NCBI GenBank assembly: GCA_944327225.1
Contig: CALVGZ010000001.1
Span: 1-64,000, forward strand
Reading direction: 5' to 3'
DNA from: Candidatus Gastranaerophilales bacterium
GTDB lineage: Bacteria > Cyanobacteriota > Vampirovibrionia > Gastranaerophilales > Gastranaerophilaceae
DNA: 64,000 nucleotides
Positions 32,959 to 49,201 of this stretch are shown here, in pieces (the first letter of the stretch is position 1; the number at the start of each line of letters is the position of its first letter). The notes under the pieces are model-generated. The model was not told the origin of the DNA. It made no database searches and saw only the letters and a list, made by a program, of their open reading frames with translations. The position numbers and the translations under genes were made by a program.

Positions 32959-34362
32959 TTGCTTATAAACAGTAATTCATATTCTTTCATAACAAAAGCT
33001 GTAAATGTTGTGCAAAATCCTGCACTTCCTGTTGGCACGCTTATTGAAGAAATCCCTTGTGATATAGGTCGCTCTTATGCAGGGTACAAGCGTGGCGGAA
33101 TAATAGAAGGTGCTGAGAAATTAAGAAAAGAAGTTATGACGGCTGTGGTTTGGTTATTTGGAATGCCTGCTTTTAGATATTTGGGCGACAAATTTTGTGA
33201 GTTTGCTTTTAAAATTCCCATGAATATTGATTATTCAAATTCTAAAGAGGGAAATGATGCTATAAAAAATTCAATAAAATATTTAAAAGATGGAATTAAA
33301 GAAGCTTCAACACCTGATGTAAGTGAATTAAAAAATGTCAGTAGTCGAATTATTAATAATTTGAAAAATATGAGTGTTGACGATGCAGTTAAGAGACTTT
33401 CTTTTGCAAAAAAGGCTACTTCTATTTCGGCACTTATTTTAAATTGTCTTGCAATGGGAATAATATTGCCTAAATTAAATCAAAAATTAACAAGAAAAAA
33501 AATTGAAAAAATGAAACGCAATTCTGTTCATAAATTTGATAATTTTGAAACTTTTAAAGCAAAGGTTTTCAATAATAAAACAAATAGCCAAGTTTCATTT
33601 AATGGTCTTTTTGCTAAATCTTATGCTGATATAAAGAATTATGGGCTTGCGGGTTTTACTACATATAATGTTGAGAATAATAACGTATTTAGGCTCTGTG
33701 CGACTGATATACCAATGACTGTTGGCAGAGTTTTAACATCAAGAAATAAATTTGAAGGCTTTGAGAACTTTTTTATGGATGTTTCAAGTATGTTTTTTTA
33801 TAATTTCTGTGCATCTTGTGTTCAAAGGGCTTTGAGGAAAAAATTTGATATTCCAAATATTAATCCCGCAAACGTTGAAGCGTTAAAAAATTCTTCTTCG
33901 GATATAATAAAAAGAGCTATTGATAATTTATCAAATATTCCTAGTGATGCAAAAGAAAAGCTTAGTTTTCTTTTTGATGATAGTTCTTTTGTAAATGAAA
34001 TATATAAAGAAGCAACCTATGGTAAATACGGAAAAATTAATAGATTTGTTAAAAATTCTGATATTAATGAAATTGATGAAGCGGTTATTAAGTTTTTAAA
34101 ACAGGCTAAGGATAAATGTTTCGTAAACGGTGACATTGATGCAAATAAATTTGCCGATTTTGCAAAAAGAATTAATAGAGCTAATTCTAAATATTTAGCA
34201 TTAGGATTGGGTATTTCAATTTTTGGTTTAGCTATTTTAGTTCCCAAGTTAACATTTTGGATTACAAAAAGAATAACCGGAAGGAATGAGTTTACAGGAA
34301 TTGCCGATTATAGTGATTTAGAAACTAAAAAACATAAAAAACAAAATGTAAATAAAAGTTAA
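32959..34362 (+). CDS. Lineage-specific membrane protein of unknown function
   Basis: The 467-residue protein has hydrophobic helices near residues 55-65 and 150-170 and near the C-terminus (about 415-440, LGISIFGLAILVPKLTFWIT). The second and the C-terminal helix each end with a similar LPKL/VPKL plus basic patch, hinting at an internal duplication. Long polar helical stretches lie between. The likely start is TTG at 32959. I recognise no family. A second protein with a similar layout is encoded at 56208-57281. Confidence 0.65.
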   Translation: MLINSNSYSFITKAVNVVQNPALPVGTLIEEIPCDIGRSYAGYKRGGIIEGAEKLRKEVMTAVVWLFGMPAFRYLGDKFCEFAFKIPMNIDYSNSKEGNDAIKNSIKYLKDGIKEASTPDVSELKNVSSRIINNLKNMSVDDAVKRLSFAKKATSISALILNCLAMGIILPKLNQKLTRKKIEKMKRNSVHKFDNFETFKAKVFNNKTNSQVSFNGLFAKSYADIKNYGLAGFTTYNVENNNVFRLCATDIPMTVGRVLTSRNKFEGFENFFMDVSSMFFYNFCASCVQRALRKKFDIPNINPANVEALKNSSSDIIKRAIDNLSNIPSDAKEKLSFLFDDSSFVNEIYKEATYGKYGKINRFVKNSDINEIDEAVIKFLKQAKDKCFVNGDIDANKFADFAKRINRANSKYLALGLGISIFGLAILVPKLTFWITKRITGRNEFTGIADYSDLETKKHKKQNVNKS

Positions 34363-35301: not shown

Positions 35302-35378
35302 TGGGGCGGGTAGTGGGATTCGAACCCACGTATACCGGAACCACAATCCGGGGCCTTAACCGCTTGGCGATACCCGCC
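35302..35378 (-). tRNA. tRNA-His (GUG), CCA encoded
   Basis: On the minus strand the acceptor stem GCGGGTA/TACCCGC is preceded by the extra G-1 that pairs with C73, the hallmark of tRNA-His. The anticodon stem CCGGA/TCCGG carries anticodon GTG (reads CAC/CAT). Unlike the other tRNAs in the window, CCA is encoded (35304-35302). It is the last host gene before the phage block, but its 5' end faces the phage. Confidence 0.95.
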
Positions 35379-35449
35379 ATAGAGTACGTAAAGCTAAATC
35401 GCTTTGATATTATAAATTAAACATTTAAAAATTGCAAGAAAAACGCCCT

Positions 35450-35473
35450 AAATTTGTAAGACCTTACAAATTT
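35450..35473. repeat. Perfect 10-bp inverted repeat upstream of the phage block
   Basis: AAATTTGTAA and TTACAAATTT are separated by four bases. There is no T-run after it, so it is not a standard terminator; it could be an operator controlling the phage operon or a boundary relic. Confidence 0.4.
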
Positions 35474-35602
35474 TGAGCTAAATCAGAGAAATTTTTAAAA
35501 ATATATGTTATCTTTAAAAAAGATTTTCGGACAATTCAAATTTGTATCATCCCTAAATTTTGGATAGAGAAACGAGGCTGACGAAAATAAGGAGGGAAAA
35601 CT

Positions 35603-35986
35603 GTGCGTCATTGCAACAGTGTGTTTGGTGCGTCTGATATTTGGTTTCTTTTAGACGACGATAAACGAGTAAATAAAAAATTGTATTTGGCAAATTGTCC
35701 TATTTGCGGGAAAAAAATTGCACTTTATTCTTATTGTGATGCTGATAAAAAGAATTACTTTGAACAATATTTTTATTCAGGAGGTGTATCCAGAATAAAA
35801 GATAAATTAAAAAAAGATGTTGTATCAACTATGTTAGGTTTTCGTGATAAATATAAAATGCCTTCAGGATTTAAATATGGTTTAAATAAGGAAATAAAAA
35901 AAGATGGAAAAATCGTAGGAGTAAAGCAATATGCATGTGACTTTTACGGTAATAAAATTTTAATCAAGAAAATGGAAGATGGATGA
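35603..35986 (+). CDS. Phage protein with zinc-binding Cys motif, function unknown
   Basis: The 127-residue protein starts at GTG 35603 with a strong AAGGAGG seven bases upstream. It has C32-x2-C35 (CPICGKKI) with C45, and a further Cys near residue 112, which could hold one zinc ion. It heads the phage operon and overlaps the small terminase gene by 8 bases. No known family is recognised. Confidence 0.65.
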   Translation: MRHCNSVFGASDIWFLLDDDKRVNKKLYLANCPICGKKIALYSYCDADKKNYFEQYFYSGGVSRIKDKLKKDVVSTMLGFRDKYKMPSGFKYGLNKEIKKDGKIVGVKQYACDFYGNKILIKKMEDG

Positions 35987-36293
35987 AAAGCAATCTATAA
36001 CTCCAAATAATTCAAAAGAATTTTTTAACAAAGTTCAAAAAAACAAAAATGAGTTTTCTGCTCAAGAAGCACTAGAAAAATTTAATGAATTGAAAGAAAT
36101 TGCCCTAAATTGTCTGGATAAAAACGGTAATCCTAATATTTCAGCAGCACTTCGTGCTGTTGAAAATATGGCTAAAATAGCAGGTTTATATAAACATAAT
36201 GGATTTGAAACAAGAGTAGTTGCTAAAATGGGTGAAATTAAAATTGATGGCGAGCAATTAAAATTAAATATCGGAGAAGATTTTATAGGATAA
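35979..36293 (+). CDS. Probable terminase small subunit
   Basis: The 104-residue helical protein lies directly before the large terminase. The stretch NPNISAALRAVENMAKIAGLYK resembles the helical oligomerisation core of small terminases, which recognise the packaging site on phage DNA. Sequence identity in this family is low, so synteny carries much of the call. Confidence 0.65.
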   Translation: MDEKQSITPNNSKEFFNKVQKNKNEFSAQEALEKFNELKEIALNCLDKNGNPNISAALRAVENMAKIAGLYKHNGFETRVVAKMGEIKIDGEQLKLNIGEDFIG

Positions 36294-36294
36294 A

Positions 36295-37617
36295 ATGAAG
36301 AACTGTATTTTACCTGAAATTTTAAACATTCCTCCGAAGTTGTATCCCTTTATTTTTAAATTTAATAATTATTCTTATTTTTTACTTGAAGGTGGAAGAG
36401 CATCCGGCAAAACCCAAAGTGTAGCGAGATTTTTATTGTATATAATGGAAAATCGTCATGTCAGGGTTTGCTGCGGTCGAGAAATACAAAATTCGATTAA
36501 TGAATCGGTTAAGGCTGTTTTTTTAGATTTAATCGAGCAGTATAATTTATCTTATGATATAAAAAGAGATTCTCTGACTCATAAAAAAACAGCGTCAAGA
36601 TTATTTTTTAAAGGATTTAGGGAACAAGGTAAAGTCAATATAAAAGGCTTAGAGGGGATAGATATACTTTGGATTGATGAGGCTCAATCAATTGCTAAAT
36701 CTACCCTGGATGTTATTATTCCGACTATTAGAAAAAAGAATTCCGTAGTTATTTTTACAATGAATAGATATACGCGGTTTGATGCAGTATATAATTTTTG
36801 TGCAAAAAGATCCGATTGCTTGCATATAAATGTATGTTATTTTGATAATCCTTATGTTGATGAAAAAATTAAAAAAGAAGCCCAAATTTCAAAAGAAACC
36901 AATATATTGGACTATAATCATATTTGGCTTGGGTATCCAATGACTAATAATAATGAATTTTTATTAAGTTCTGATTCAATTGATAAATCTATAAATCTTG
37001 AATTTGAAATAGATAGTTCCTATTTTTATAATTCGGTTATGAGCGTCGATTTATCGGCTTCTGGTGCTGATTTATGCGTTGCAAAATTGTTTGTTCAGCA
37101 AAATGAATGTGTTTGGTTGGAGAAATTTACAAAAAGCTGGTCAGAATCAGATACCGATATTACTAGAGGAAAAATTATAAGCTTATATTCGGAGTGGTCA
37201 CCAAAACTTTTAATAATTGATGCAGATGGATTGGGCTATCCGATTTGGATTAGTATACAAAAAATGATTAATTCTGCAATAGGTTTTAGGGGTGCTAAAA
37301 AGCCCCTTTCAAAATTTGCATTGAATGCCAGAGCTGATGGCTACTTGGCTCTTAAGGATTATTTGGATAAAGGATATTTAAAGTTAACTGACAAAAATGC
37401 AGTAAGGCAACTGGAGTATATAAAAAAAATTTATAAACCAAACGGTCTGATTGCTATACAGGATAAAAAAGAAATAAGAAAATTTCACAATGAAAGTCCT
37501 GATTTTGCAGACTGTGCGATGATGGCATTATATGCAATAAATTACTGCACAAAAACGCTTATATTGGAAAATTCATTTGATTCATTTGTTGAAAGCGAGT
37601 TTGAACCATTTGAATAA
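36295..37617 (+). CDS. Phage terminase large subunit
   Basis: The 440-residue packaging motor has an ATPase domain with Walker A GGRASGKT (33-40) and Walker B ILWIDEAQ (D128, E129), and a C-terminal RNase H-like nuclease with acidic residues D252 (MSVDLSASG), D309/D311 (LLIIDADG) and D403/D406 (SPDFADC). The layout fits the PBSX/Terminase_3 family. It fills the capsid with DNA and cuts it. All catalytic residues are present, so it appears functional. Its ATG lies one base after the small-subunit stop. Confidence 0.93.
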   Translation: MKNCILPEILNIPPKLYPFIFKFNNYSYFLLEGGRASGKTQSVARFLLYIMENRHVRVCCGREIQNSINESVKAVFLDLIEQYNLSYDIKRDSLTHKKTASRLFFKGFREQGKVNIKGLEGIDILWIDEAQSIAKSTLDVIIPTIRKKNSVVIFTMNRYTRFDAVYNFCAKRSDCLHINVCYFDNPYVDEKIKKEAQISKETNILDYNHIWLGYPMTNNNEFLLSSDSIDKSINLEFEIDSSYFYNSVMSVDLSASGADLCVAKLFVQQNECVWLEKFTKSWSESDTDITRGKIISLYSEWSPKLLIIDADGLGYPIWISIQKMINSAIGFRGAKKPLSKFALNARADGYLALKDYLDKGYLKLTDKNAVRQLEYIKKIYKPNGLIAIQDKKEIRKFHNESPDFADCAMMALYAINYCTKTLILENSFDSFVESEFEPFE

Positions 37618-37638
37618 CAAAATTAGAAAGGAAAAAAT

Positions 37639-37833
37639 ATGTGTTTTATTAAGTCTTCTACTAAACCTGTTGTTATACAGCAGGAGCCTGTTGAAAGAAA
37701 GCAAGCAAATGCACAAACAACAAAATCTACTCAAGATGAAAGATTTAGGGGTTATGAACAAAATGTTAAAACTTCTTCTATTGGTCTTACTGATGACGCT
37801 AACGTTGAGAAAAAAACACTTTTAGGAGAATAA
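37639..37833 (+). CDS. Small phage protein between terminase and portal
   Basis: The 64-residue protein has a polar, Gln/Lys-rich middle and the C-terminal pattern NVKTSSIGLTDDANVEKKTL. Short proteins with a comparable ending are common next to portal genes in podoviruses; their role is unknown. It has an AAAGGA ribosome site and sits three bases before the portal gene. Confidence 0.6.
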   Translation: MCFIKSSTKPVVIQQEPVERKQANAQTTKSTQDERFRGYEQNVKTSSIGLTDDANVEKKTLLGE

Positions 37834-37836
37834 AAA

Positions 37837-39471
37837 ATGGATTTTTATACTGTCGAGTATTTTCAAAAAAGAAAAAAGGAAATGGAAGATGTTTTTAATA
37901 ACATTAAACCAGATTTGCAAGAACTTGCGGATTATTTTTCGCCAAGGAGCGTTCAATTTATTGCAAGGAATGTAAGAAAACCTATAGTAAGAAACAAAAA
38001 AATTATAGATTCTACTCCTTTGATTGCATTAAGGAATTTTTCTTCCGGTATTATGTCCGGTGCAACCAGTCCTTGTTACAGATGGTTTAAAACTTCATTC
38101 TCAAACGCAGATGTAAATAATGATTATTATTTAAAGAAGTGGTGTGCAAGACAAGAAGAATTAACAAGACAAATTTTGTACAGTTCAAATTTTTATCAAT
38201 GTCTGCCCGAAGTATATAAGCAACTTGGTATTTTTGGTTTTAGTGCTGTTTCATTGGAGTCGGATTATGATACAATAGTCAATTTTAAAGTTCTTCCTAT
38301 AGGTTCTTATTATTATGCTAAAAATTCACGCGGAAAAGTTGATTGTTTTTGTAGAGTTTATATGGAAACAGCTAAAAATATTGTTCAAAAATTCGGGAAA
38401 AACTGTCCGTCAGAAATTTTGGAAGCATCAGTAAATAATCCTTTAAAACTTTACGAATTAATACATTTTGTTGAAGAAAATCAATTTTATAAAAAGAGAC
38501 ACCTTTCGTCCAGATTTTCAAAGTATGTTTCTGTTGTGATTTTATCAAATAAGAACGAGTTTTTATCAATTAAAGGATTTGATAAGTTTCCGTTTGTTGT
38601 TTTTGAAAGTGCATTTTCTTCTGATGTTGATTATCCTCAAGATTCTCCGGGAATAAACGCCTTAGCGGACGTTAAACAATTAATGACAATGGTAAAAGAG
38701 TATGCTAAAGCCGTCAAAAAGATTGTTTGTCCGACGTATAAAGGACCTGCTACTTTGAAAAATAAGAAATTAGCTGATGTTCCGGGTGCATATATAGAGG
38801 AAGACGAAAATGGCAGAGGTATCAGTCCCGTTTATGAAGTTAATCCGAGAGTACTTGAACTCAAACAAGAAAAAGATGAATTAAAACAAGCGATAAAAGA
38901 GCATTTTTATAATGATTTGTTTGCTATGATATTGACAACTGCGGAACGTGGCAGGACAGCGACTGAAGTAAATGAGCTAAAAGAAGAAAAAATGGTGCTT
39001 TTATCACCTTTATTGGAGCAAATTCATTGTGCTTTAAGGCAAATTTTAAATTGGATATATAAAGAAGAAATACGAGTAGGTATATTAGAACCTCTTAAAT
39101 CGAAGTATCAGAATTGCAGGTTTGAAATAGAGTTTGTATCTAGTCTTGCTCAAGCTCAAAAAGTTTCAAATATTTCAAGTATGGAAAGATTTACGACATT
39201 TGTTTCTAATATTGCCAATGCTATTGATCCGATTTTAAAATCTAAACTTAACGGTGAAAAAATTATTGAAGATTATGCCAATTATGCAAATATAGACCCA
39301 ACTCAAATTGTACCATCGGAAGAAATTGAAAAAATAAAAGCTCAAAATGCTACAAACCAAAGTCTTCAAATGCAATTGGAAGCTATGAAACAAGGCAGTC
39401 AAATAATACAAAATATGGGTGGAGTAGATTCGCATGGGGCTGATTTATTGTCTCGTTTTGGAATTATATAG
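37837..39471 (+). CDS. Podovirus portal (head-to-tail connector) protein
   Basis: The 544-residue protein matches the podovirus head-to-tail connecting protein family (PF12236 type): early LQELADYFSPRSVQF, IDSTPLIALRNFSSGIMSG, and later TAERGRTATEVNELKEEKM followed by LLSPLLEQIHCALRQIL. It forms the 12-fold ring at one capsid vertex through which DNA passes. Length is normal for the family. The C-terminus is a Gln/Met-rich helix. Confidence 0.92.
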   Translation: MDFYTVEYFQKRKKEMEDVFNNIKPDLQELADYFSPRSVQFIARNVRKPIVRNKKIIDSTPLIALRNFSSGIMSGATSPCYRWFKTSFSNADVNNDYYLKKWCARQEELTRQILYSSNFYQCLPEVYKQLGIFGFSAVSLESDYDTIVNFKVLPIGSYYYAKNSRGKVDCFCRVYMETAKNIVQKFGKNCPSEILEASVNNPLKLYELIHFVEENQFYKKRHLSSRFSKYVSVVILSNKNEFLSIKGFDKFPFVVFESAFSSDVDYPQDSPGINALADVKQLMTMVKEYAKAVKKIVCPTYKGPATLKNKKLADVPGAYIEEDENGRGISPVYEVNPRVLELKQEKDELKQAIKEHFYNDLFAMILTTAERGRTATEVNELKEEKMVLLSPLLEQIHCALRQILNWIYKEEIRVGILEPLKSKYQNCRFEIEFVSSLAQAQKVSNISSMERFTTFVSNIANAIDPILKSKLNGEKIIEDYANYANIDPTQIVPSEEIEKIKAQNATNQSLQMQLEAMKQGSQIIQNMGGVDSHGADLLSRFGII

Positions 39472-39482
39472 GAGATTAAAAA

Positions 39483-40403
39483 TTGAATAATGTAAAATTA
39501 TTGGCAGGCATTTCATACATCGAATTTATAAATAACGTTGATAATTTAATTAATGAGCTTTTGTATTCTCCTGATGGTGGATATACAGCTTTGTTTTCAA
39601 AGAATGCGGTGATTTCTGCTCAAAGTATTGTAGATAAATTTGATCACGAGACTGAAAAGTTAAAGAAACAAATAGATTTTCCCGATTCTGATAAAGTTAT
39701 TGAAGAAAAAAGAAAAGATTTAATTAAACAAATTAAAAAGCACTATGATATTCAGTCTCTTGCTTGGGCAGATGAAGTTTATCAAAATATGCTGGATAAT
39801 TGTTTTTTGCAAGCTACCATATTTAAAAATGATAAAGAGGTAAGAGATAAAATTTATGCAAAAATAATTTCAGGCGTTTCGTGGATAGCTAATGTTCGAA
39901 AATTAAATGATGAGACTTTAAATAAGCTTATTAAATTTAATTTAAATAAATTTTATCAGGCACTTAATTCAAATGATAAAGATTACATTCCCAAGTCGGA
40001 TACTGATAAATCAGATGTAGATTTGTTTATTGAATTTAGGGATTTAATTTTAAAAGATAAGGATAAATTTATTATCCTTGATTTTAACTCGTTAAATGAT
40101 AAGTTAAGCGTTGATGATATTAATTATTTCAATCGTTTAAAAAGGGATTTACAAACATATAAAATTAATACGGTGAAAGATGATATTTTGCTTGTTAATA
40201 GTGCTATTGACGTTTTAAAAATTAAAAACAATACTGAAAAATATAACTTTGTAAAACTGGTTGAAAATGATTTTAGTTCTCAACTTGAAAATTTGGATGA
40301 AAACAAAAAAATCGATCTTGTGAAAAGAAGAATGAAGTTATTTAAAAATTCTTTGCACAACGATAATATTTCAGAATATTTTAAAAGTAAAATTATTTCT
40401 TAG
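39483..40403 (+). CDS. Unknown phage-block protein
   Basis: The 306-residue protein is highly charged and helical (many K, D, N and I), with no motif I recognise. The start is TTG at 39483 with GGAGA seven bases upstream; no in-frame ATG exists for the first ~100 residues. It stands where phages of this type often carry a virion accessory gene, between portal and scaffold. Its end overlaps the convergent minus-strand gene by 11 bases. Confidence 0.6.
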   Translation: MNNVKLLAGISYIEFINNVDNLINELLYSPDGGYTALFSKNAVISAQSIVDKFDHETEKLKKQIDFPDSDKVIEEKRKDLIKQIKKHYDIQSLAWADEVYQNMLDNCFLQATIFKNDKEVRDKIYAKIISGVSWIANVRKLNDETLNKLIKFNLNKFYQALNSNDKDYIPKSDTDKSDVDLFIEFRDLILKDKDKFIILDFNSLNDKLSVDDINYFNRLKRDLQTYKINTVKDDILLVNSAIDVLKIKNNTEKYNFVKLVENDFSSQLENLDENKKIDLVKRRMKLFKNSLHNDNISEYFKSKIIS

Positions 40404-40818
40404 AATGAGTTATTGAACAATATTCGGGATTTGCCAGATACTTCTGAAAGACTTCTCCGTTTGTTGTCATCTTAGCTTCAAAAATAGGGTTTTTTGCCAA
40501 TTGTTTTTTAAATATTTCACTATATTTTTCCATTGATTTTGACATGAAAGGAAGTTGTCCTTCATTAAAATTACAAGTCAGCATTTGATATTCTTTGCCT
40601 TGGTATATTTTTTCTTTGTATACACATTTCCCGTTTTTTGTTTTTTCCAGGGTTACAAGAATGTTAAAAACTTCATTGTTTCTTTCAATGCTGCCCGTTT
40701 GTGAAAAGTTTTCGCATGTTAAAAGTGCTTTGGAAAATTTTGTTTGCATTGCATACACTGAGCAAATTCCAAGTGTTGTGCATATTATAGAAATAATAAA
40801 AAACAATGTTTTTTTCAT
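40393..40818 (-). CDS. Secreted small protein on the opposite strand (moron candidate)
   Basis: The 141-residue protein has a clear signal peptide (residues 1-23, ending SVYA) and a mature part with four or more Cys likely forming disulfides, so it should act in the periplasm or outside. It is the only minus-strand gene in the virion block and has its own ribosome site (GGGGAG) and a TACAAT -10 box at 40850-40845. Such inserted, independently expressed genes are called morons and often alter the host. No family is recognised. Confidence 0.65.
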   Translation of the reverse strand: MKKTLFFIISIICTTLGICSVYAMQTKFSKALLTCENFSQTGSIERNNEVFNILVTLEKTKNGKCVYKEKIYQGKEYQMLTCNFNEGQLPFMSKSMEKYSEIFKKQLAKNPIFEAKMTTNGEVFQKYLANPEYCSITHSKK

Positions 40819-40870
40819 ATTTATTTAACTCCCCTTCTATCTACATTGTATCACAAAAGAAAGGATAAAA

Positions 40871-41422
40871 ATGCAAGAACAAATTAAAAATTCCCTTTAT
40901 CTAAATGATGAAGGCGAGGACTTATTTGGAGTTCCCGAACAATATGACTGTTCGAAATTTCAGAATTTAGACGGATTTTGTTTGGATGATGAATTGATGA
41001 AACAGTTTATACCGATAGCAAAAAAACTTAACTTGTCTCAACGTTCTGTTGAGATGTTGTTTGAAATAGCTCTCAATATGGTAAAAAAACAAACATTGCA
41101 ATATGAGCGTGATAAAGAATTTACTAAGCAAACTATGCTTGAGGGTTATTATAAGAAATTTTGTGAGGATTGTGAACTTCCTAATCCAAATACTCCAAAA
41201 GTTTCAGAGTATATGAGAGTAGCAGACACTGCGTATAATGAGTTTGCCTCTGCCGAATTAAAAGAAGCATTTAAGGAAACGGGGCTTAATTATCATCCTG
41301 AATTAATAAAAATGTTTTATAAAATCGGAGAATTGGCTCAAGAAGATAATCTTTCGCACTATGGTAAACCTGCTTTTGAGGAGTTAACTCCTGCACAAAT
41401 TTTATACGGAAAAAATGACTAA
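40871..41422 (+). CDS. Probable capsid scaffolding protein
   Basis: The 183-residue protein carries the pattern LDDELMKQFIPIAKKLNLSQRSVEML and later HPELIKMFYKIGELAQEDN, both typical of scaffolding proteins of podoviruses placed just before the major capsid gene. It should guide procapsid assembly and then leave. It sits 12 bases before the capsid gene and reads like a normal-length member. Confidence 0.78.
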   Translation: MQEQIKNSLYLNDEGEDLFGVPEQYDCSKFQNLDGFCLDDELMKQFIPIAKKLNLSQRSVEMLFEIALNMVKKQTLQYERDKEFTKQTMLEGYYKKFCEDCELPNPNTPKVSEYMRVADTAYNEFASAELKEAFKETGLNYHPELIKMFYKIGELAQEDNLSHYGKPAFEELTPAQILYGKND

Positions 41423-41434
41423 TAAGGAGGAAAA

Positions 41435-42430
41435 ATGTCAGTCGTTGGAAATACTTATTTAACTTTAAAAGACAAATTTGCCCAAAAGGAAAACGGCAGA
41501 ATTGCAACTACTATTATTGACTTGTTATCACAGTCAAATGTAATTTTAGAGGATGCTGTTGTAAGAGAGTGCAATGAAGGTTCAACTCATAAAACAACAG
41601 TCAGAAATGGTCTTCCCGAAGTAGAATTTAGAAAATTTTATCAGGGAGTCGCGTCTTCTAAGGGTGAATATACACAAATAACTGATACTACAGGTATGTT
41701 AGAAGTATATTCTCAAGTTGATAAGTCACTTGCTGATTTAGAAGGCGATACTCAACAATTTAGGATGAATGAAGCACAAGCGTTTTTAGAATCCATGAAT
41801 AATACAGTTCAAGAAAATATATTTTATGGTTCTAAAGCTACCAATCCTGCGGGTTTTGATGGACTTGCGGTTAGATATAATAAAATATCTTCCGATCCTG
41901 CTTCAATTGGCTATAGAGTTTTAGACGCAGGTGGTACAGGAAATACGAATACATCTATTTGGTTTGTAACCTGGGGTGATTTACATACTCATTTATTATA
42001 TCCGAAAGGTTCTCAAATGGGACTTGTTCATACGGATAAAGGTGCTCAAACAGCTACGGATGCTAATGGAAACATGTTTGAAGTATACAGAGACCATTTT
42101 AAATGGGATATAGGAATGACCGTAAGAGATTTCCGTTCAACTGCTCGTATAGCAAATATTGATGTTGAAGACCTTTCGGGTAATGACGCAGCTGATTTAA
42201 TTAAATTAATGATTACTGCTTATCACAGGATTAAACGTTTTGCAAAAACCGGTCAAACCGTTATTTATTGTAATGAAACAGTAGAAACATATTTACATTT
42301 CCAGGCAATAAATAAAAATAATGTAAAACTTTCAATTGATGAATTTGCAGGACGTCCGATTGTTTCATTCCTTGGAATTCCCATAAAATGTGTAGATCAA
42401 ATTAAGAATAGTGAAAAGGCTGTTTCATAA
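41435..42430 (+). CDS. Major capsid protein, GP7 (epsilon15-like) family
   Basis: The 331-residue protein fits the GP7 family of major capsid proteins named from phage epsilon15 (HK97 fold). Segments supporting this are FRKFYQGVASSKGEYTQI, ENIFYGSKATNPAGFDGLA, GSQMGLVHTDKG and a final FAGRPIVSFLGIPIKCVDQI. The ribosome site AGGAGG is optimal, as expected for the most abundant virion protein. It forms the icosahedral shell with the cement protein encoded next. Confidence 0.88.
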   Translation: MSVVGNTYLTLKDKFAQKENGRIATTIIDLLSQSNVILEDAVVRECNEGSTHKTTVRNGLPEVEFRKFYQGVASSKGEYTQITDTTGMLEVYSQVDKSLADLEGDTQQFRMNEAQAFLESMNNTVQENIFYGSKATNPAGFDGLAVRYNKISSDPASIGYRVLDAGGTGNTNTSIWFVTWGDLHTHLLYPKGSQMGLVHTDKGAQTATDANGNMFEVYRDHFKWDIGMTVRDFRSTARIANIDVEDLSGNDAADLIKLMITAYHRIKRFAKTGQTVIYCNETVETYLHFQAINKNNVKLSIDEFAGRPIVSFLGIPIKCVDQIKNSEKAVS

Positions 42431-42445
42431 AATTTAGGAGGAAAA

Positions 42446-42838
42446 ATGTTATTAGATGCTCAAAATTTATTCTCTGATGCTCAAGCTATTACATCAGGAA
42501 CTATTTATTCTACAAATACCGTAAGATTTGGAAAAAACGATATTTCTTTTGTACCGATTATAATACAAGCAGTTAGTGATTTTACAAATTTAACCAGTTT
42601 AAACGTTAAGATTCAAACTTCTGAAACTTCAGATTTTAGTTCTTCTTCTGATTTAGCCGAGTCTACAATGGTTTTGGCTGACCTTAAAGCAGGCAAGAAA
42701 TTCCCTATTTCATATTTACCTAAAGGTAATAAAGGATATATAAGGCTTGCCTATGTCGTTACTGGAACTGCGGAAACAACCGGAAAAATAACTGCAGGCG
42801 TTGTTGCTTCTGATGAATTAAGCTATCACGAAATGTAG
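42446..42838 (+). CDS. Bbp16-like capsid cement/decoration protein
   Basis: The 130-residue protein resembles Bbp16 of Bordetella phage BPP-1 and the epsilon15 gp10 staple: the start LLDAQNLFSDAQAIT, the central IQTSETSDFSSSSDL, and GKKFPISYLPKGNKGYIRLAY. These jelly-roll proteins clamp neighbouring capsid hexamers. It directly follows the capsid gene with its own AGGAGG and is followed by a terminator. Confidence 0.82.
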   Translation: MLLDAQNLFSDAQAITSGTIYSTNTVRFGKNDISFVPIIIQAVSDFTNLTSLNVKIQTSETSDFSSSSDLAESTMVLADLKAGKKFPISYLPKGNKGYIRLAYVVTGTAETTGKITAGVVASDELSYHEM

Positions 42839-42852
42839 TCTGGTTTTATCTT

Positions 42853-42877
42853 GTGGGCTTTTATAGCCCACTTTTTT
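42853..42877 (+). terminator. Strong terminator after capsid and cement genes
   Basis: Perfect 7-bp stem GTGGGCT/AGCCCAC with a 5-base loop and six T residues. It lies inside the phage late operon and should lower transcription of the downstream tail genes relative to the capsid genes, as the T7 terminator after gene 10 does. Confidence 0.9.
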
Positions 42878-42894
42878 AATGGAAAGGAAATTAT

Positions 42895-43428
42895 ATGTGT
42901 ACACCTACTGATGCAATAAAATCTGTTGGTCAAACGCTTAAATTTGTTTCTAATATCTTTACTCCAATAAATACGGTTGTTTCTGTTGCTAATGATGCTA
43001 AATATAAAACTCAAGTTGCTATAAATAATGCAAAAAGTGCTGAAAATGAGGCAATGAGATTACAACAATTGGGAATTGAGGAATCTCGCAGAGAAAAAAT
43101 AATTGGAATTCAAAATGCAAATAAATTGTTAGCACAAAATGCAGCCGGCGGTATGGATATTTCTTCTGGCACAAATTCTTACGCTTATCAGGATGTAATT
43201 GATTCTGCTTATTCCGATGCTCAAAATACCTTGAATGACTATGAATATCAAGCACAAAGCTATTTTAATCAAGCAAACGATTATATTAGTGACGCTAATT
43301 ACGATATTGCTAGTACTAATAATTACTTATTAAACTATGCTGTTACGGGTTTGGGTAATGCTGGATTAGCTACAAAAGAGTGGTTTATACAAAAAGATAA
43401 AGAAAGAGACGAAAGGTTGACCGTATGA
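42895..43428 (+). CDS. Internal virion protein (T7 gp14-like position)
   Basis: The 177-residue protein has a weakly hydrophobic N-terminus (residues 12-35), then an A/N/Q/E-rich long helix (43-75), a short GMDISSGTN turn, and more helix. This architecture and place just before tail tubular protein A are those of the small internal core proteins that leave the virion to form the DNA channel in podoviruses. Identity is low; the call rests on architecture and synteny. Confidence 0.65.
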   Translation: MCTPTDAIKSVGQTLKFVSNIFTPINTVVSVANDAKYKTQVAINNAKSAENEAMRLQQLGIEESRREKIIGIQNANKLLAQNAAGGMDISSGTNSYAYQDVIDSAYSDAQNTLNDYEYQAQSYFNQANDYISDANYDIASTNNYLLNYAVTGLGNAGLATKEWFIQKDKERDERLTV

Positions 43429-44018
43429 CGTATTCAAAAGCTCAAATTTTTAATATTACTCTTAATATTTTAGGTGTATCAATGCCACTTGAAAATGCGA
43501 ACTCTAATGATAATCGTGCTATTTTATTAAATAATTATTATTTTTTGGCTCGGGACTATGTTCTGAAGGATTTTGATTGGAATTTTGCCAGTACTTTTAA
43601 AGAACTTTCCTTGGTACAAAATTTTGATTTAATTTTTGGATATAAATATTGTTATGATTACCCTAATGATTGCATTTGTGCAAGAGATGTATTTGAAAAG
43701 GGTGACTATAGAATACAAAAATATACGGTGGCTTCACTTGAAAATGGCGATAGAGCAATTTTTACAAACGTTGAACATGCTGTTTTGAGGTATACAAGAC
43801 GTATTGATAAAGAAATTTATTTTGGATGTGAATTTTCAATGGCACTTGCTCATTATCTTGCCGCGCTTACATCAAATGTATTGACCGGAAGCACTCAAAA
43901 AGGTGAGGCTGCCTATCAAAAGTATCGAGCAATATTGAAGCGTGCGAAAGTTTTAAATGCCGAAGAAGGCATTAATGACGTTTATGATGAAAATACATAC
44001 ATAGATGCTAGGAGTTGA
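43425..44018 (+). CDS. Tail tubular protein A-like (gp11-like adaptor)
   Basis: The 197-residue protein begins with FNITLNILGV and has DWNFASTFKELSL, DYPNDCICARDVF and a C-terminal helical EFSMALAHYLAALTSNVLTGS...A...Y...L..AK stretch, all typical of podovirus tail tubular A proteins that join the portal to the tail nozzle. It overlaps the preceding gene by 4 bases (ATGA). Confidence 0.85.
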   Translation: MTYSKAQIFNITLNILGVSMPLENANSNDNRAILLNNYYFLARDYVLKDFDWNFASTFKELSLVQNFDLIFGYKYCYDYPNDCICARDVFEKGDYRIQKYTVASLENGDRAIFTNVEHAVLRYTRRIDKEIYFGCEFSMALAHYLAALTSNVLTGSTQKGEAAYQKYRAILKRAKVLNAEEGINDVYDENTYIDARS

Positions 44019-44020
44019 TT

Positions 44021-46081
44021 ATGAGCGTTAGGGTTTCTCAAAATTCATTTTCTCGAGGGATTATTTCTCCGTCTTTACAGGGTCGAGTTGATTTGGAACA
44101 ATATTCTCTCGGCGTAAAAGAACTTGTAAACGGTATGGTCTTGCAAGAAGGTTGTATTGTTAATCGTCCGGGATTGGAGTTTTTGGTAAAAACAAAGTAT
44201 AGCAACAAAAAAGTTCGACTTATTCCATTTGTTTTTAATTTGGAGCAAAGTTATATAATAGAAGCAGGAAATCAATATTTTAGGTTTATAAAAAATGGCG
44301 GGTATATATTAAACGATAATGACGAAATTTATGAAATAGAAACACCTTATGTTGAGGCTGATTTATTTGAGTTAGATTATGTCCAGCAGGCTGATGTTTT
44401 GACTATTGTACATAGAAATTATGTACCTTATGAACTTTCGAGACTGGAACATGATGATTGGCAATTAAATGCTATTGATTTTAAATCTTCTATCGAACCA
44501 CCAAGTACGGTGAGTGCTGTGTATACGGGTTCAACATCTTCAAATACAACCACTTATGAGTATGTTGTTTGTTCTGTAGATACAAAAACAAAAGAAGAAA
44601 GTTCAAGAAGTTCCGTGGCTTCGGTTGTTGGTCATTTGGAAGCTTATTGGACAACGGCAGAAAAGATTACAATTTCATGGAGTGCGGTTGAAAATGCTCT
44701 TGAATATAACATATATCGTTCGGTAAACGGAATTTTCGGGTATGTTGGAACTTCGAGTACTACTTCTTTTGTGGATAATAATATTGAACCGGATTTAACC
44801 AGTTGTGCTCCTGTTTTTACAAATCCGTTTGAAGATGAAAACCCATCTTGTGTTTGTTATTATCAACAAAGAAAAGTTTACGCTTCTTCAAATGAATCTC
44901 CGCAAGCATTATGGGCAAGCCAAACTGGCACTAATGATAATTTTAATATTTCAAGACCGTTAAATGCGACGGATTCTATTTCAATGTCAATTTACGATAA
45001 TGTTGCAAATTTAATTCAACATTTAATTCCTTTTGATGATCTTATTGTTATGACGACAAATGCTGAATGGTCGGTAAACGGGTCTGACGGTATTTTTTGT
45101 GCTAGTCCAGCTCCAATTGCCAATATTCAATCTTATTACGGTGCATCAAAGGTAAAACCTGTCATATCCGGTTCGATGGTTTTATTTGTGCAATCGGGTG
45201 GCAATATTCTTCGTGATTTGGGTTATAGCTATTTGTCAGATTCTTACGACGGACAGGAATTAACTATACTTGTCAGTCATTTATTTGAAGGTAAACAAAT
45301 AGTCGATATGGCATATTCTAAGGAGCCTTATAGAATTGTTTGGTGCGTTATGAATGATGGTACAATTAACGCTCTTACCTATAATCCTAAGCAAAAAATA
45401 ACCGCTTGGCACCAGCATGTGACTGACGGAGTTTTCGAAAGTGTCACTACAATTAGAGAAAACAATGAAGATATAGCTTATTTTGTGATTAAAAGAATAA
45501 TTGATGGAACTGAGGTAAGGTATATTGAAAGATTTAAGTCTCGTACGGTCAAGTCGTTGAAAGATGCTTTTTTTCTTGATTGTGCATTATCTAAAACATT
45601 TGATTCAAAGGTTAGCAAAATTTATGGTCTGGAGCATTTAAAAAATAAAACAGTTAATGCCTTATTGGATTATGGGGTTGTGGAAAATCTTGTGGTTAAT
45701 TCAAGTGGTGTTCTTGATTTACCCTATGAAGCCAAGAACGTTTTAATTGGCCTTCCTTATACTTTTAGAATGGAGACTTTAAATATTGAAAGTGAAAGTA
45801 CTTTAGGTATAAATAAAGTTATAAATAAAGTTGATGTTAAGATTTTGAATTCAAGAGAAGATTTCTTTATTGAAAATGATGATTTTACGTTGTCACAAAA
45901 TGCTAGAAGTTATGATAGTATTAATTTTCCAGAAGAATTATACAACAAAGATGTTGAATTTTGTCCGCTTTCTAATCCTACTTTTCAAGCTTCGGTTAAG
46001 ATTATTCAGCCCTACCCCCTTCCTTTGTGTATTCTTTCTGTTTCTTCAACCATTTCCCTTGAGGAGATAGAACAAGCATGA
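44021..46081 (+). CDS. Tail tubular protein B-like nozzle protein with FN3-like domain
   Basis: The 686-residue protein starts at ATG 44021 (AGGAG upstream). The first segment SQNSFSRGIISPSLQGRVDLEQY, followed by NRPGLEFLV, is characteristic of nozzle proteins of podoviruses. Around residues 160-265 there is a fibronectin-III-like insert with paired strands (YEYVVCSVD, ENALEYNIYRS). The middle is beta-propeller-like in its repeating hydrophobic strands (for example VKPVISGSMVLFVQS). It forms the end of the short tail. Confidence 0.83.
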   Translation: MSVRVSQNSFSRGIISPSLQGRVDLEQYSLGVKELVNGMVLQEGCIVNRPGLEFLVKTKYSNKKVRLIPFVFNLEQSYIIEAGNQYFRFIKNGGYILNDNDEIYEIETPYVEADLFELDYVQQADVLTIVHRNYVPYELSRLEHDDWQLNAIDFKSSIEPPSTVSAVYTGSTSSNTTTYEYVVCSVDTKTKEESSRSSVASVVGHLEAYWTTAEKITISWSAVENALEYNIYRSVNGIFGYVGTSSTTSFVDNNIEPDLTSCAPVFTNPFEDENPSCVCYYQQRKVYASSNESPQALWASQTGTNDNFNISRPLNATDSISMSIYDNVANLIQHLIPFDDLIVMTTNAEWSVNGSDGIFCASPAPIANIQSYYGASKVKPVISGSMVLFVQSGGNILRDLGYSYLSDSYDGQELTILVSHLFEGKQIVDMAYSKEPYRIVWCVMNDGTINALTYNPKQKITAWHQHVTDGVFESVTTIRENNEDIAYFVIKRIIDGTEVRYIERFKSRTVKSLKDAFFLDCALSKTFDSKVSKIYGLEHLKNKTVNALLDYGVVENLVVNSSGVLDLPYEAKNVLIGLPYTFRMETLNIESESTLGINKVINKVDVKILNSREDFFIENDDFTLSQNARSYDSINFPEELYNKDVEFCPLSNPTFQASVKIIQPYPLPLCILSVSSTISLEEIEQA

Positions 46082-46557
46082 AAGAAATTGAAATTAATAA
46101 GGAAAATCTTATTAAATTGTTTAATAATTTAAGAAAAGATGATTTACGCGAATTAAAGGTAATTTTTAAAAATAATATTAAAAGAAATTTTGTCAAAATT
46201 TGTCTTGAAAATAAAGATACATATTTTATTGCCGATGATAAAGGTTCTCCTCTTGCGATAGGCGGGATTAAGATATTTTATATAAAAAATTTTTTGGTTG
46301 GTCAAGTTTGGTTACTATGTAGTAATGATGTGTCGAAAAATCGATTGTCGGTTTTAAAATATGTCAAAGATAAAATCGGTGAATTTAAATTGGAATGTGA
46401 TGTTTTATTTAATTTTATTTATAAGTCTAATTTTAGTTTTTTAAAGTGGCTTAAATATGCCGATTTTGAAGCTATACCGATAAATAATAATTTCAAATTA
46501 TTTTATTATAAAAAAGGAGGTATTAATTTTGATTTACGATATTTTACCTGTAAATAA
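46078..46557 (+). CDS. Phage gp13-like (GNAT-fold) virion protein
   Basis: The 159-residue protein resembles the T7 gp13 family, which has an acetyltransferase-like fold: YFIADDKGSPLAIGGI, VWLLCSNDV and a SFLKWLKYADFEAI helix-strand ending (the usual LRWLKWLGF). The catalytic acetyl-CoA loop is not obvious. In T7 gp13 is needed for virion assembly. It overlaps the previous gene (ATGA) and the next by 29 bases. Confidence 0.7.
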   Translation: MKEIEINKENLIKLFNNLRKDDLRELKVIFKNNIKRNFVKICLENKDTYFIADDKGSPLAIGGIKIFYIKNFLVGQVWLLCSNDVSKNRLSVLKYVKDKIGEFKLECDVLFNFIYKSNFSFLKWLKYADFEAIPINNNFKLFYYKKGGINFDLRYFTCK

Positions 46558-47551
46558 TTATCAGGGAAATAACAGCACAACAACTTTTGATTTTGATTTT
46601 TATATTGAAAGCAGTGAGCAATTAAAAGTTTATCATTTTGATGAAAATAATGTAAAAAATTTATTAATTGAGGGTGTCGACTACTCGATAAATGAATTTA
46701 AAAATGAAAACGGAAGTTATATTACCTTTCCATTGCAGGGTTCAACTTATGGAACTTTAGCGACAAATGAAAAAATATCTTTAGAATTGTCTTTACCTAT
46801 TTCACAGGATACTCAGTATAATAACAGTTCTTTATTAAATCTTAAGGCACTTGAGTATTCTCTTGATTATTTAACAAGATTGATTCAAATTTATGCAAGA
46901 AAAATTCAATTATGTGTTAAGGTTGAAGAATGTTCTGAAAATACACCGGAACAGTTGATTGATAGCATAAATCAACACTCATTAAATGTTGCTGGTTATG
47001 CAAATTCTGTTCAAAATGCTTTGAATTCAATCACTGAGATGAAAACGTCTATTGACAATACATATAATGTTATTTCTGGCTACAGTGAAAAATTTGATTC
47101 TATTGATACCCTTTCAGAGCATTGTGATGATATTGATGAGGCTATTTTATCAAAAGCAGATAGTGATTTAGAAAACTTGACAAACGGGCTTGCAAATACA
47201 ATATGCACAACACCGGCAACTACTGTAAGCTCTGCTACAAGTGCTATGCCTGCTGTCATTGTTGAAAATTATATTAGTGGTTATTCTTGGTATAGAGTTT
47301 GGTCTGATGGTTGGTGCGAACAAGGAGGTAGAACTGTAAATCCTTTACAAAGTAGTTTTAGTGTTTCGCTTTTAAAAAATTATACCAATTTAAATTACAG
47401 TATTTTTATTGTAATCTCTGGCTCAAATGCTACTGTTGTTACTGCAAATGTTATGTCAAGAACCACAAGTAGTTTTAATGTTGAAAGTAAGTATTTAGCA
47501 TATAACAACAGAGATTTGGAGTGGTTTGCGTGCGGATATTTGGCAAATTAG
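46529..47551 (+). CDS. Tail fibre/spike protein with T7 gp17-like N-terminus
   Basis: The 340-residue protein starts at TTG 46529 (AAAGGAGG eight bases upstream). The N-terminal ~125 residues fit the virion-attachment domain of podovirus tail fibres (NNYQGNNSTTTFDFDFYI, then DYSINEF and LSLPISQDTQYNNSS). A helical stalk follows (about 130-215). The C-terminal ~100 residues (YSWYRVWSDGWCEQGG to WFACGYLAN) look like a gp53-type receptor-binding tip. It should decide host attachment. Confidence 0.82.
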   Translation: MIYDILPVNNYQGNNSTTTFDFDFYIESSEQLKVYHFDENNVKNLLIEGVDYSINEFKNENGSYITFPLQGSTYGTLATNEKISLELSLPISQDTQYNNSSLLNLKALEYSLDYLTRLIQIYARKIQLCVKVEECSENTPEQLIDSINQHSLNVAGYANSVQNALNSITEMKTSIDNTYNVISGYSEKFDSIDTLSEHCDDIDEAILSKADSDLENLTNGLANTICTTPATTVSSATSAMPAVIVENYISGYSWYRVWSDGWCEQGGRTVNPLQSSFSVSLLKNYTNLNYSIFIVISGSNATVVTANVMSRTTSSFNVESKYLAYNNRDLEWFACGYLAN

Positions 47552-47559
47552 GAGGAATT

Positions 47560-48051
47560 ATGAGTTATAAATTAAATAAACCATACGAAGAAAATGAAAA
47601 AATAAACTTTATTGTTAATTATAACCATAATATGGGTTTAAAAATCGAAGAAACAGAAACTGCGATATATGCACTTGAACCTTATGAAATAATAGTTAAT
47701 GATTCTGTTGTTGATAATTCAGTCGAATATCAGAGTGAGCTGCTTCAAAGAGAACAAGAACGAATTGCAATGTTAAATTTGACTGCAGCAGATGTAGAAA
47801 GAGCTATATACAAGGCAAAAGGGATGGATTTTGATGATGTTATTGCTCTATTGGAAGCTCAGCCTTTATCTGATAATGGAGAACCTCTGGTCAATATTAA
47901 AGAATTAAAGATTGAATTGAAAGCTAATAATTTTTACAGGGGCAATCCTTATATAAATCTTGTTGGTTCTTTACTTGGTTTTAGCAATACTCAGCTCGAT
48001 GAATTTTTTGAAACAAATGATTATACTAAACTTATGGATACGCAAGTATGA
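47560..48051 (+). CDS. Unknown phage protein downstream of the fibre
   Basis: The 163-residue protein starts at ATG 47560 with GGAGGAA upstream; a longer frame from 47521 overlaps the fibre gene and is less likely. It has a helical Q/E-rich middle (QSELLQREQERIAML) and no known motif. Its position after the fibre suggests a fibre chaperone or tail accessory protein, which is only an inference. Confidence 0.6.
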   Translation: MSYKLNKPYEENEKINFIVNYNHNMGLKIEETETAIYALEPYEIIVNDSVVDNSVEYQSELLQREQERIAMLNLTAADVERAIYKAKGMDFDDVIALLEAQPLSDNGEPLVNIKELKIELKANNFYRGNPYINLVGSLLGFSNTQLDEFFETNDYTKLMDTQV

Positions 48052-48506
48052 TTGAATGGTATAAAGATATTGAACTTGAAATTTATTTTGATTCTGTTCC
48101 CCTTGTTATGATGCGGTACGTTAAACCTTATGATGACGATAAAGCAAAAGAAGAAGTTGCAAAAAAACCTTTCATATCAAAAAAGGAATTAAATGTTCTT
48201 TTGGTTGACAGTATTAATTGTAAAAGATATGAATTTTCTATTATTAAAGATTATTGTTGGGATGGGGCATCAATACCCAGATTTTTTTGGCGTTTAATAG
48301 GCTCTTGTACAGACTCTCGTTTTTTAATACCGAGTTTAATTCATGATGTATTATGTGAAAATCATAACTATATTGATAATGACAGGTATTTTTCAACAAG
48401 AGTTTTTGAACGATTGCTTTTTGTTTCTGGTGTCAATCCTTTTAATCGTTGGTTGATGTTTCATTCTGTGGATAATTTTCAAAAATTTTGTTCTTGGAGA
48501 AACTAG
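48048..48506 (+). CDS. DUF1353-family phage protein
   Basis: The 152-residue protein has the family signature WDGASIPRFFWRLIG followed by IPSLIHDVLCE and NDRYFSTRVFERLL. DUF1353 proteins are common in phage tail/lysis regions; the His-Asp in IHDV may bind metal, but function is unknown. It overlaps the upstream gene (ATGA). Confidence 0.85.
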   Translation: MIEWYKDIELEIYFDSVPLVMMRYVKPYDDDKAKEEVAKKPFISKKELNVLLVDSINCKRYEFSIIKDYCWDGASIPRFFWRLIGSCTDSRFLIPSLIHDVLCENHNYIDNDRYFSTRVFERLLFVSGVNPFNRWLMFHSVDNFQKFCSWRN

Positions 48507-48760
48507 TGGATCATTTGTTTGAATATGCACCATTTGCTTTGTTTGTTATTAATCTTTTATTGTGTTTAAGAATATTTGCAAGAACAGAGGATATGAATAA
48601 TTTAAAAGCGGAGCTTATGACTTATGGGATGGAGCATTTTGTGACAAAAGATACATATTCTGATAATCATAAGGCTCTTCAAGATCAAATGCTTCAAATA
48701 CATTCTGACATTTCAGATGTTAAAAATCTTTTAATAAATTCAATTAGCAACAGAGGATAA
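48506..48760 (+). CDS. One-helix phage membrane protein, holin candidate
   Basis: The 84-residue protein starts at GTG 48506, which overlaps the upstream TAG stop; GGAG lies six bases before it. Residues about 7-24 form one transmembrane helix (FALFVINLLLCLRIFA) and the rest is a charged coiled coil. A single-helix protein directly before an endopeptidase gene is a plausible holin or spanin-like factor. Confidence 0.6.
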   Translation: MDHLFEYAPFALFVINLLLCLRIFARTEDMNNLKAELMTYGMEHFVTKDTYSDNHKALQDQMLQIHSDISDVKNLLINSISNRG

Positions 48761-48764
48761 TAAG

Positions 48765-49166
48765 ATGAATAGATTGAATTTTACTTTTTCGGAATTATTA
48801 AAGTCTGATACGGCAAAAAATAATAATATAAGCAACATGCCTGATATTTCTTCTTTGGATAATTTATTAGATCTAATTGTTTTTTGTTTGCAGCCGCTGA
48901 GAGAATTAATTGATAAACCGATGATTATAACATCAGGTTTTAGGACTGATAAAGTAAATAAGCTTGTTGGCGGCTCGTCATTTTCTCAACATAAAAGTGG
49001 TCAAGCTGTTGATTTTGTTGTGAAAAACATGACTCCATCTAAAATTATCGATATTATATTAAAAAGCAACATTGAATTTGATCAATTGATAAATGAATAT
49101 GATAAATGGGTGCATATATCGTTCAATAAGCATAAAAATCGAAAACAGGTTTTAAAAATTAAATAA
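48765..49166 (+). CDS. M15-type peptidoglycan endopeptidase (endolysin candidate)
   Basis: The 133-residue protein fits the zinc DD-peptidase M15 family: FRTDKVNKLVGG, then SxHxxGxAxD as SQHKSGQAVD (H76, D83) and WVHISF with the third ligand H117. The catalytic Glu would be one of those near residue 104-111 (EFDQLINEY). It should cleave peptidoglycan peptides during lysis. There is no signal peptide, so it depends on the holin. It is the last gene of the phage block. Confidence 0.87.
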   Translation: MNRLNFTFSELLKSDTAKNNNISNMPDISSLDNLLDLIVFCLQPLRELIDKPMIITSGFRTDKVNKLVGGSSFSQHKSGQAVDFVVKNMTPSKIIDIILKSNIEFDQLINEYDKWVHISFNKHKNRKQVLKIK

Positions 49167-49172
49167 AATGTT

Positions 49173-49201
49173 AAAAGTACAGTATAAGCTGTACTTTTTT
49201 T
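49173..49201 (+). terminator. Terminator at the end of the phage block
   Basis: Perfect 10-bp stem AAAAGTACAG/CTGTACTTTT with a 6-base loop and T-run, 7 bases after the last phage stop codon. Confidence 0.9.

Follow-up and report, generated by a model that had tools for sequence, protein, structure and literature searches.

In this work, we describe a cassette of 19 packed, intact phage-type genes, 18 on the forward strand and one on the reverse (positions 35603-49166), found in a window of 64,000 nucleotides from a Candidatus Gastranaerophilales bacterium (Cyanobacteriota; contig CALVGZ010000001.1). The cassette is of the epsilon15 podovirus type and carries virion, packaging and lysis functions, as assigned by PHROGs and Pfam. 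It is under strong purifying selection, vertically inherited, and held at one chromosomal place throughout the genus. The explanation we favor, and regard as quite probable, is that it is a domesticated epsilon15-type prophage, controlled by the host and working as a gene transfer agent (GTA), which would package host DNA and transfer it between cells.

What is expected of a GTA at the sequence level is found here: the cassette is of tailed-phage origin and places head, tail, packaging and lysis functions in a host chromosome; it has diversified together with its host, is present taxon-wide and evolves slowly under purifying selection; and it contains no genes for autonomous replication or integration. 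It agrees with GTAs in every sequence-level trait tested. At the level of particles, a GTA packages mostly random host DNA, in pieces too short to hold its own genes, and delivers it to recipient cells, where it recombines. An active temperate phage of the epsilon15 type would feature an integrase, a repressor, replication genes and attachment (att) sites, none of which was found; its head and tail gene set is present, in the same order, but gp15-gp17 are not recognisable. A phage satellite would be mobile and, lacking a full virion set, would borrow that of its helper, while this cassette sits at a fixed single site and has a near-complete virion set.

Conservation and inheritance of the cassette

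The original prediction, made on this window alone, had suggested comparing the same locus in relatives, with a ratio of nonsynonymous to synonymous substitution rates (dN/dS) below 1 as a sign of purifying selection. The comparison was run on assemblies, mostly metagenome-assembled genomes (MAGs); the relatives listed by GTDB are Candidatus Gastranaerophilales MAGs, several of them from animal guts, with rabbit, goat and roe deer among the sources of MAGs of the genus. The major capsid gene was found in all 28 genomes of the genus that were searched, each a separate species, as a single copy with 79-97% identity and no internal stops. Within the limits of the contigs, every species keeps the cassette genes in the same order, and all covered copies of the terminase, portal, capsid and nozzle genes are complete. 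Whenever ARAGORN detects a tRNA on a contig that extends to that side, it is a tRNA-His located immediately before the first cassette gene; the neighboring HD-domain gene is also kept, the orientation of the cassette relative to it being reversed in most species.

For close pairs, dN/dS is 0.022 for the capsid, 0.025 for the portal, 0.032 for the large terminase (TerL), 0.053 for the adaptor and 0.074 for the nozzle, to be compared with 0.089 for valS and 0.11 for the HD-domain neighbor; dS is near 1 or above for cassette and host genes alike. The catalytic residues of terminase and endopeptidase, already noted as present in the window, turned out to be invariant: this is true for the Walker A and B motifs and the nuclease aspartates of TerL in 22 species, and for the zinc-ligand motifs of the M15 endolysin in 16.

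The cassette tree has 8 of 21 splits in common with the host tree based on rpoB and secA, while the rpoB and secA trees have 7 in common with each other; permuted labels give 0.2 common splits on average, and 3 at most. Since cassette and host agree at about the level at which two host genes agree, the cassette has been inherited with its host, with some recombination, as housekeeping genes are.

The small terminase

The small terminase (TerS) of the cassette is present minus its usual DNA-binding domain. The N-terminal helix-turn-helix (HTH) region was recognized in 10 out of 10 prophage-type copies, and in none of the 24 cassette copies aligned (10 from the window's genus, 13 from a second genus, described below, and one from a third). 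Cassette TerS proteins are 93-111 amino acids (aa) long and have no Pfam match; a missed start is excluded in the window by in-frame stops upstream of the gene. The structure model (pLDDT 54) was too poor and was left unused. Loss of the N-terminal DNA-binding domain was proposed by Sherlock et al. as a defining trait of GTA small terminases (PMC6854486), and a later review describes the same loss in the putative TerS of known GTAs (PMC11841831): the cassette protein appears to match them in this trait.

The leader region

Two noncoding motifs, A and B, precede the first cassette gene in all species covered (Table 1). Motif A, searched in the 28 whole genomes allowing up to 3 mismatches, was present in each, differing at one position at most, and in every case it preceded the cassette; in G018 it occurs on two contigs, both times before cassette genes. 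Motif B is invariant in 29 out of 29 leader copies. By comparison, within the same genus the capsid gene has an invariant base at only 4.5% of its third codon positions. In several species an insertion containing repeats separates the two motifs, both of which stay intact. The invariance of the leader points to a selected, cassette-specific control, in which motif A would probably serve as a promoter or activator site, while motif B may be an RNA or regulatory element; a palindrome lying further upstream is a possible operator. Used as a regulon probe across the genus, motif A revealed no second site beside another gene, so that no dispersed GTA genes are detectable by that route.

Gene content and boundaries

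The original prediction had described a podovirus set of virion, packaging and lysis genes, flanked by host genes and free of integrase, repressor, replication gene or flanking repeat, and the predicted open reading frames together with the PHROGs and Pfam assignments bear this out. Assigned functions include TerL, a gp3-like protein, portal, protease/scaffold, major capsid, Bbp16-type cement, tail tubular protein A and nozzle, along with two internal virion proteins, a tail fibre N-terminus, a DUF1353/tail-assembly protein and an M15 endolysin (Table 1). The capsid protein matches epsilon15 gp7 (PDB 3j40) and that of BPP-1, the nearest isolates by capsid being epsilon15-like phages with 45-50% identity, and the gene order follows epsilon15. 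The 306-aa protein encoded after the portal is probably an internal virion protein, shortened and relocated.

No integrase family match was found within the window, and neither a repressor nor a replication gene among the cassette genes; the genome (G000) has four tyrosine recombinase (Phage_integrase) matches, all away from the cassette (C1 168061-168507, C12, C14 and C20). The search for att-like direct repeats around the cassette gave nothing beyond chance, the longest shared word, 12 nt, being typical of random window pairs. Host genes flank the cassette, an HD-domain protein and tRNA-His upstream, a glycosyltransferase and valS downstream. A 467-aa protein without Pfam match (32959-34362) is a neighbor of the cassette in most species; a distant relative of it (23%) is found in G075, a genome of the second genus, about 7 kb upstream of that genome's own cassette.

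Table 1. Features of the cassette and of its upstream region, in window coordinates
Feature	Position	Strand	Remarks
tRNA-His (gtg)	35302..35377	-	ARAGORN; anchor beside the cassette start
Palindrome GCCCTAAATTTGTAAG-AC-CTTACAAATTTTGAGC	35445..35478	.	perfect or imperfect in many relatives
Leader motif A, TCGGACAATTCAAATTNGTATC	35527..35548	+	upstream of first cassette gene
Leader motif B, GAGAAACGAGGCTGACGA	35567..35584	+	invariant 5' leader element
First cassette gene, small cysteine-containing protein, 127 aa	35603..35986	+	homologue at equivalent place in prophages
Small terminase, 104 aa, without N-terminal HTH domain	35979..36293	+	
Large terminase	36295..37617	+	ATPase and nuclease motifs invariant
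gp3-like small protein (phrog_831)	37639..37833	+	position as epsilon15 gp3
Portal protein	37837..39471	+	
306-aa protein	39483..40403	+	weakly similar to the ejection/endolysin-type protein of relatives (~470-740 aa)
Secreted 141-aa protein	40393..40818	-	in every species covered
Capsid protease/scaffold, 183 aa	40871..41422	+	208-246 aa in prophages
Major capsid protein (epsilon15 gp7/BPP-1 family)	41435..42430	+	
Bbp16-type capsid cement protein	42446..42838	+	
Internal virion protein (phrog_418)	42895..43428	+	
Tail tubular protein A/adaptor	43425..44018	+	
Tail nozzle (tail tubular B type)	44015..46081	+	
Acetyltransferase-like internal virion protein (phrog_308)	46078..46557	+	epsilon15 gp13 position
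Tail fibre, phage-type N-terminus	46529..47551	+	C-terminus and length vary among species
phrog_6034 protein, probable fibre assembly	47521..48051	+	putative function, from position
DUF1353/tail-assembly chaperone type protein	48048..48506	+	
Holin-like small membrane protein	48488..48760	+	putative, from position and hydrophobic stretch
Endolysin, M15 peptidase	48765..49166	+	unrelated GH24 lysozyme instead in sister clade

The lysis function is kept despite gene exchange: the M15 peptidase is found in 16 species and the GH24 lysozyme in 4. The gene on the opposite strand, encoding the secreted 141-aa protein, is found in all 25 species with contig coverage, with invariant cysteines and a dN/dS of about 0.12. 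Its AlphaFold model is confident (pLDDT 89), but at E <= 0.001 neither PDB nor viral structures gave a fold match; possibly, this gene is cargo or a moron that became fixed together with the cassette. In both cassette lineages, that of the window's genus and that of the second genus, the slot between the TerL and the gp3/portal genes holds unrelated inserted genes, lysozyme among them, and is a cargo hotspot; examples are found at L057 14625-16610, L109 4374-6129 and in G146 (L205/L206), where the inserts reach about 10 kb.

Prophage relatives and a second cassette lineage

Outside the window's genus, a capsid match was found in 17 of the 181 genomes sampled from the family, eight of them belonging to the second genus and nine spread across others; an order-level sample agrees with this. 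In most other genera of the family such relatives are rare, and those examined in genera g32, g7 and g8 are prophages of about 40 kb, with the same virion gene order. They additionally carry an endolysin/ejection-type protein of about 700 aa, a giant protein of 2700-2900 aa, repressor-like and replication-like genes and, where one was seen, a serine or tyrosine recombinase. The giant protein was not found in six cassette genomes searched.

The second lineage is that of genus g41 (G075 and its relatives), where the capsid gene was detected in 41 out of 41 genomes, each a species, the full-length copies being 85-96% identical. In nearly all inspected loci with a contig long enough on that side, the cassette adjoins RlmH; where the contig covers it, aspartokinase comes after. 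It is compact, has no giant protein, features a TerS shortened at its N-terminus, and is preceded by a two-part conserved leader of its own, common to G039 of genus g13. In one g41 genome, G239, the capsid gene was only found as two fragments, on contigs C13 and C82, one of them with an internal TAG: this is either an assembly break or a rare broken copy. Divergent extra capsid copies are present in addition to the fixed cassette in other g41 genomes (G204, on C5 and C7, i.e. L285 and L286; G230, on C18). Those of G204 are accompanied by a prophage-type TerS that includes the HTH, so that this single genome contains both a GTA-like cassette and prophages related to it.

In a phylogeny built from TerL, portal, capsid and nozzle, the window's genus groups with some of the prophages, and g41/g13 with a different set of them. 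Constraining all cassettes together is worse by 482 log-likelihood units (approximately unbiased test, p-AU 1e-49), in a test whose model and grouping were chosen after seeing the data; the host rpoB tree does not unite the two genera. Two domestications of one prophage family would be the simplest account. On balance, we hold it likely that one epsilon15-like prophage family in gut Gastranaerophilales gave rise to podovirus-type GTAs on two or more independent occasions, each time through the same changes: TerS lost its DNA-binding domain, the giant ejection-type protein and the lysogeny/replication half disappeared, the scaffold became shorter, and the cassette was captured behind a two-part host-controlled leader. 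A single ancestral GTA, common to both genera, from which prophages escaped later, would equally leave the GTA assignment intact, and would account for compactness, TerS without HTH and two-part leader in both cassettes. We consider it quite unlikely: apart from the rejected grouping of all cassettes, leader sequences and chromosomal sites differ between the genera, and the prophages would need to regain both the HTH and the giant protein.

Proposed mechanism and alternative explanations

In the mechanism we propose, a host signal would act at leader motifs A and B in a few cells, short-tailed heads would assemble, and a TerS without sequence specificity would allow TerL to begin headful packaging at any point of the chromosome; holin and endolysin would together lyse the cell, and the particles would deliver host DNA to relatives.

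Some observations weigh against a GTA. Delivery is the doubtful step, because the large ejection proteins are missing and only the 306 aa relative of one seems left: the cassette has no recognisable match to those of epsilon15 and of the sister prophages, so DNA may be delivered in another way than by epsilon15, or no longer delivered at all. On IMG/VR contig L109, a related cassette adjoining Mu-like genes has no TerL and a cut nozzle gene, which reflects either decay in one lineage or misassembly. Finally, serine recombinases are found upstream of the cassette in two species, G001 and G007; they are probably separate elements using the same hotspot.

The recombinase genes are located at L110 2183-3712 (corresponding to G001, L317 6863-8392) and, on L039, upstream of the cassette; the tRNA-His sits between recombinase and cassette, and in G001 small phage-like genes are also present there. 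Their interpretation as a remnant integrase was set aside, as they occur in two species only and in a gene order unlike that of the prophages.

The main rival, unlikely though by no means negligible, is a particle domesticated for another purpose, either killing, as PBSX does, or release of host DNA without delivery, which would package and lyse but not inject. PBSX is a precedent: this particle, of phage origin, is filled with host DNA and kills those relatives that are sensitive to it. Moreover, both cassette lineages have lost the giant ejection-type protein, as well as any recognisable counterpart of epsilon15 gp15-gp17, and the variable fibres suggest target specificity. A short nozzle tail with no contractile sheath would however be an unlikely killing device, and the internal virion proteins, along with the shortened ejection-type protein, are kept under selection.

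The original prediction had left three options open. A recently trimmed or decaying prophage would agree with the absence of integrase, repressor and replication genes and with the existence of clear prophage relatives; its probability is negligible, and we take it as excluded, because the cassette is found in 28 out of 28 species with conserved order and place, dN/dS values of 0.02-0.07 in core genes, an invariant leader and congruence with host genes. A satellite or helper-dependent element, travelling with a helper phage, could draw on the serine recombinases that neighbor the cassette in two species, G001 and G007, but is very unlikely, the cassette being never absent, inherited vertically, in single copy at the same site and with no mobility genes of its own in the other species; its full virion gene set is, in addition, the opposite of satellite gene content. 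The remaining option, a podovirus-type GTA, is the one that the sequence evidence supports.

Significance and comparison with known systems

Few GTAs have a known genetic basis: three groups, each exapted independently, were evaluated in the classification of 2022 (PMC9662315). In a literature search of partial coverage, no work linking Gastranaerophilales or Vampirovibrionia with GTAs was found. If our explanation is true, GTAs extend to the Gastranaerophilales branch of Cyanobacteriota, to animal guts and to a podovirus chassis of the epsilon15 type. Two domestications in parallel, along with prophage relatives that are still alive, would open to comparison a long-standing question, the route from phage to GTA and the changes that it requires: since related intact prophages still circulate in the family, this route would be readable step by step, if the parallel origin holds, and the parallel cases would test the proposal that the decisive change is for TerS to lose its DNA-binding domain. 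Virus catalogues, moreover, can list chromosomal cassettes as viruses, as exemplified by IMG/VR contig L110, which is catalogued as a virus and whose compared proteins are essentially identical to those of the cassette in G001.

With epsilon15 and related podoviruses (Uetakevirus; Bordetella BPP-1 type capsid), the cassette shares a capsid 46% identical over its whole length, matching PDB 3j40, and the order TerS-TerL-gp3-portal-protease-capsid-cement-tail. Unlike them, it has no integrase, repressor or replication module, its TerS is without HTH and its scaffold shorter, and no gp15 (lytic transglycosylase), gp16 or gp17 is recognisable. The cassettes of the G075 genus and of G039 are similar in ancestral phage family, layout, TerS without HTH, two-part leader and host genes on both sides; the G075-genus cassette differs in chromosomal place (RlmH/aspartokinase), leader sequence and tree branch.

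The GTA of Rhodobacter capsulatus (RcGTA, Rhodogtaviriformidae) is siphovirus-like, and its cluster, of about 14-15 kb, is similar in size. Its chromosomal virion cluster, co-diversification with the host, slow evolution and TerS without N-terminal DNA-binding domain (PMC9662315, PMC6854486) are all mirrored by the cassette. Regulators and accessory loci differ, and transfer is proven for RcGTA.

The claim of the original prediction that a podovirus-type GTA would be new proved too strong, as the Faecalibacterium FpGTA was described in 2026 as "most likely podovirus-like", with a TerS without obvious DNA-binding domain (PMC12946183). FpGTA is present in all 12 genomes examined of a gut bacterium of Bacillota, includes lysis genes, and consists of two operons of 10.5 and 5.5 kb, producing heads of about 40 nm with about 8.5-9 kb of DNA (PMC12946183). 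Compared by description only, the two systems have in common the gut host, the TerS without obvious DNA-binding domain and the lysis genes; in contrast to FpGTA, the cassette is one operon-like block of epsilon15 type, lysis genes included, in Gastranaerophilales. What is new here is the epsilon15 origin, the Gastranaerophilales host lineage and the putative parallel domestication.

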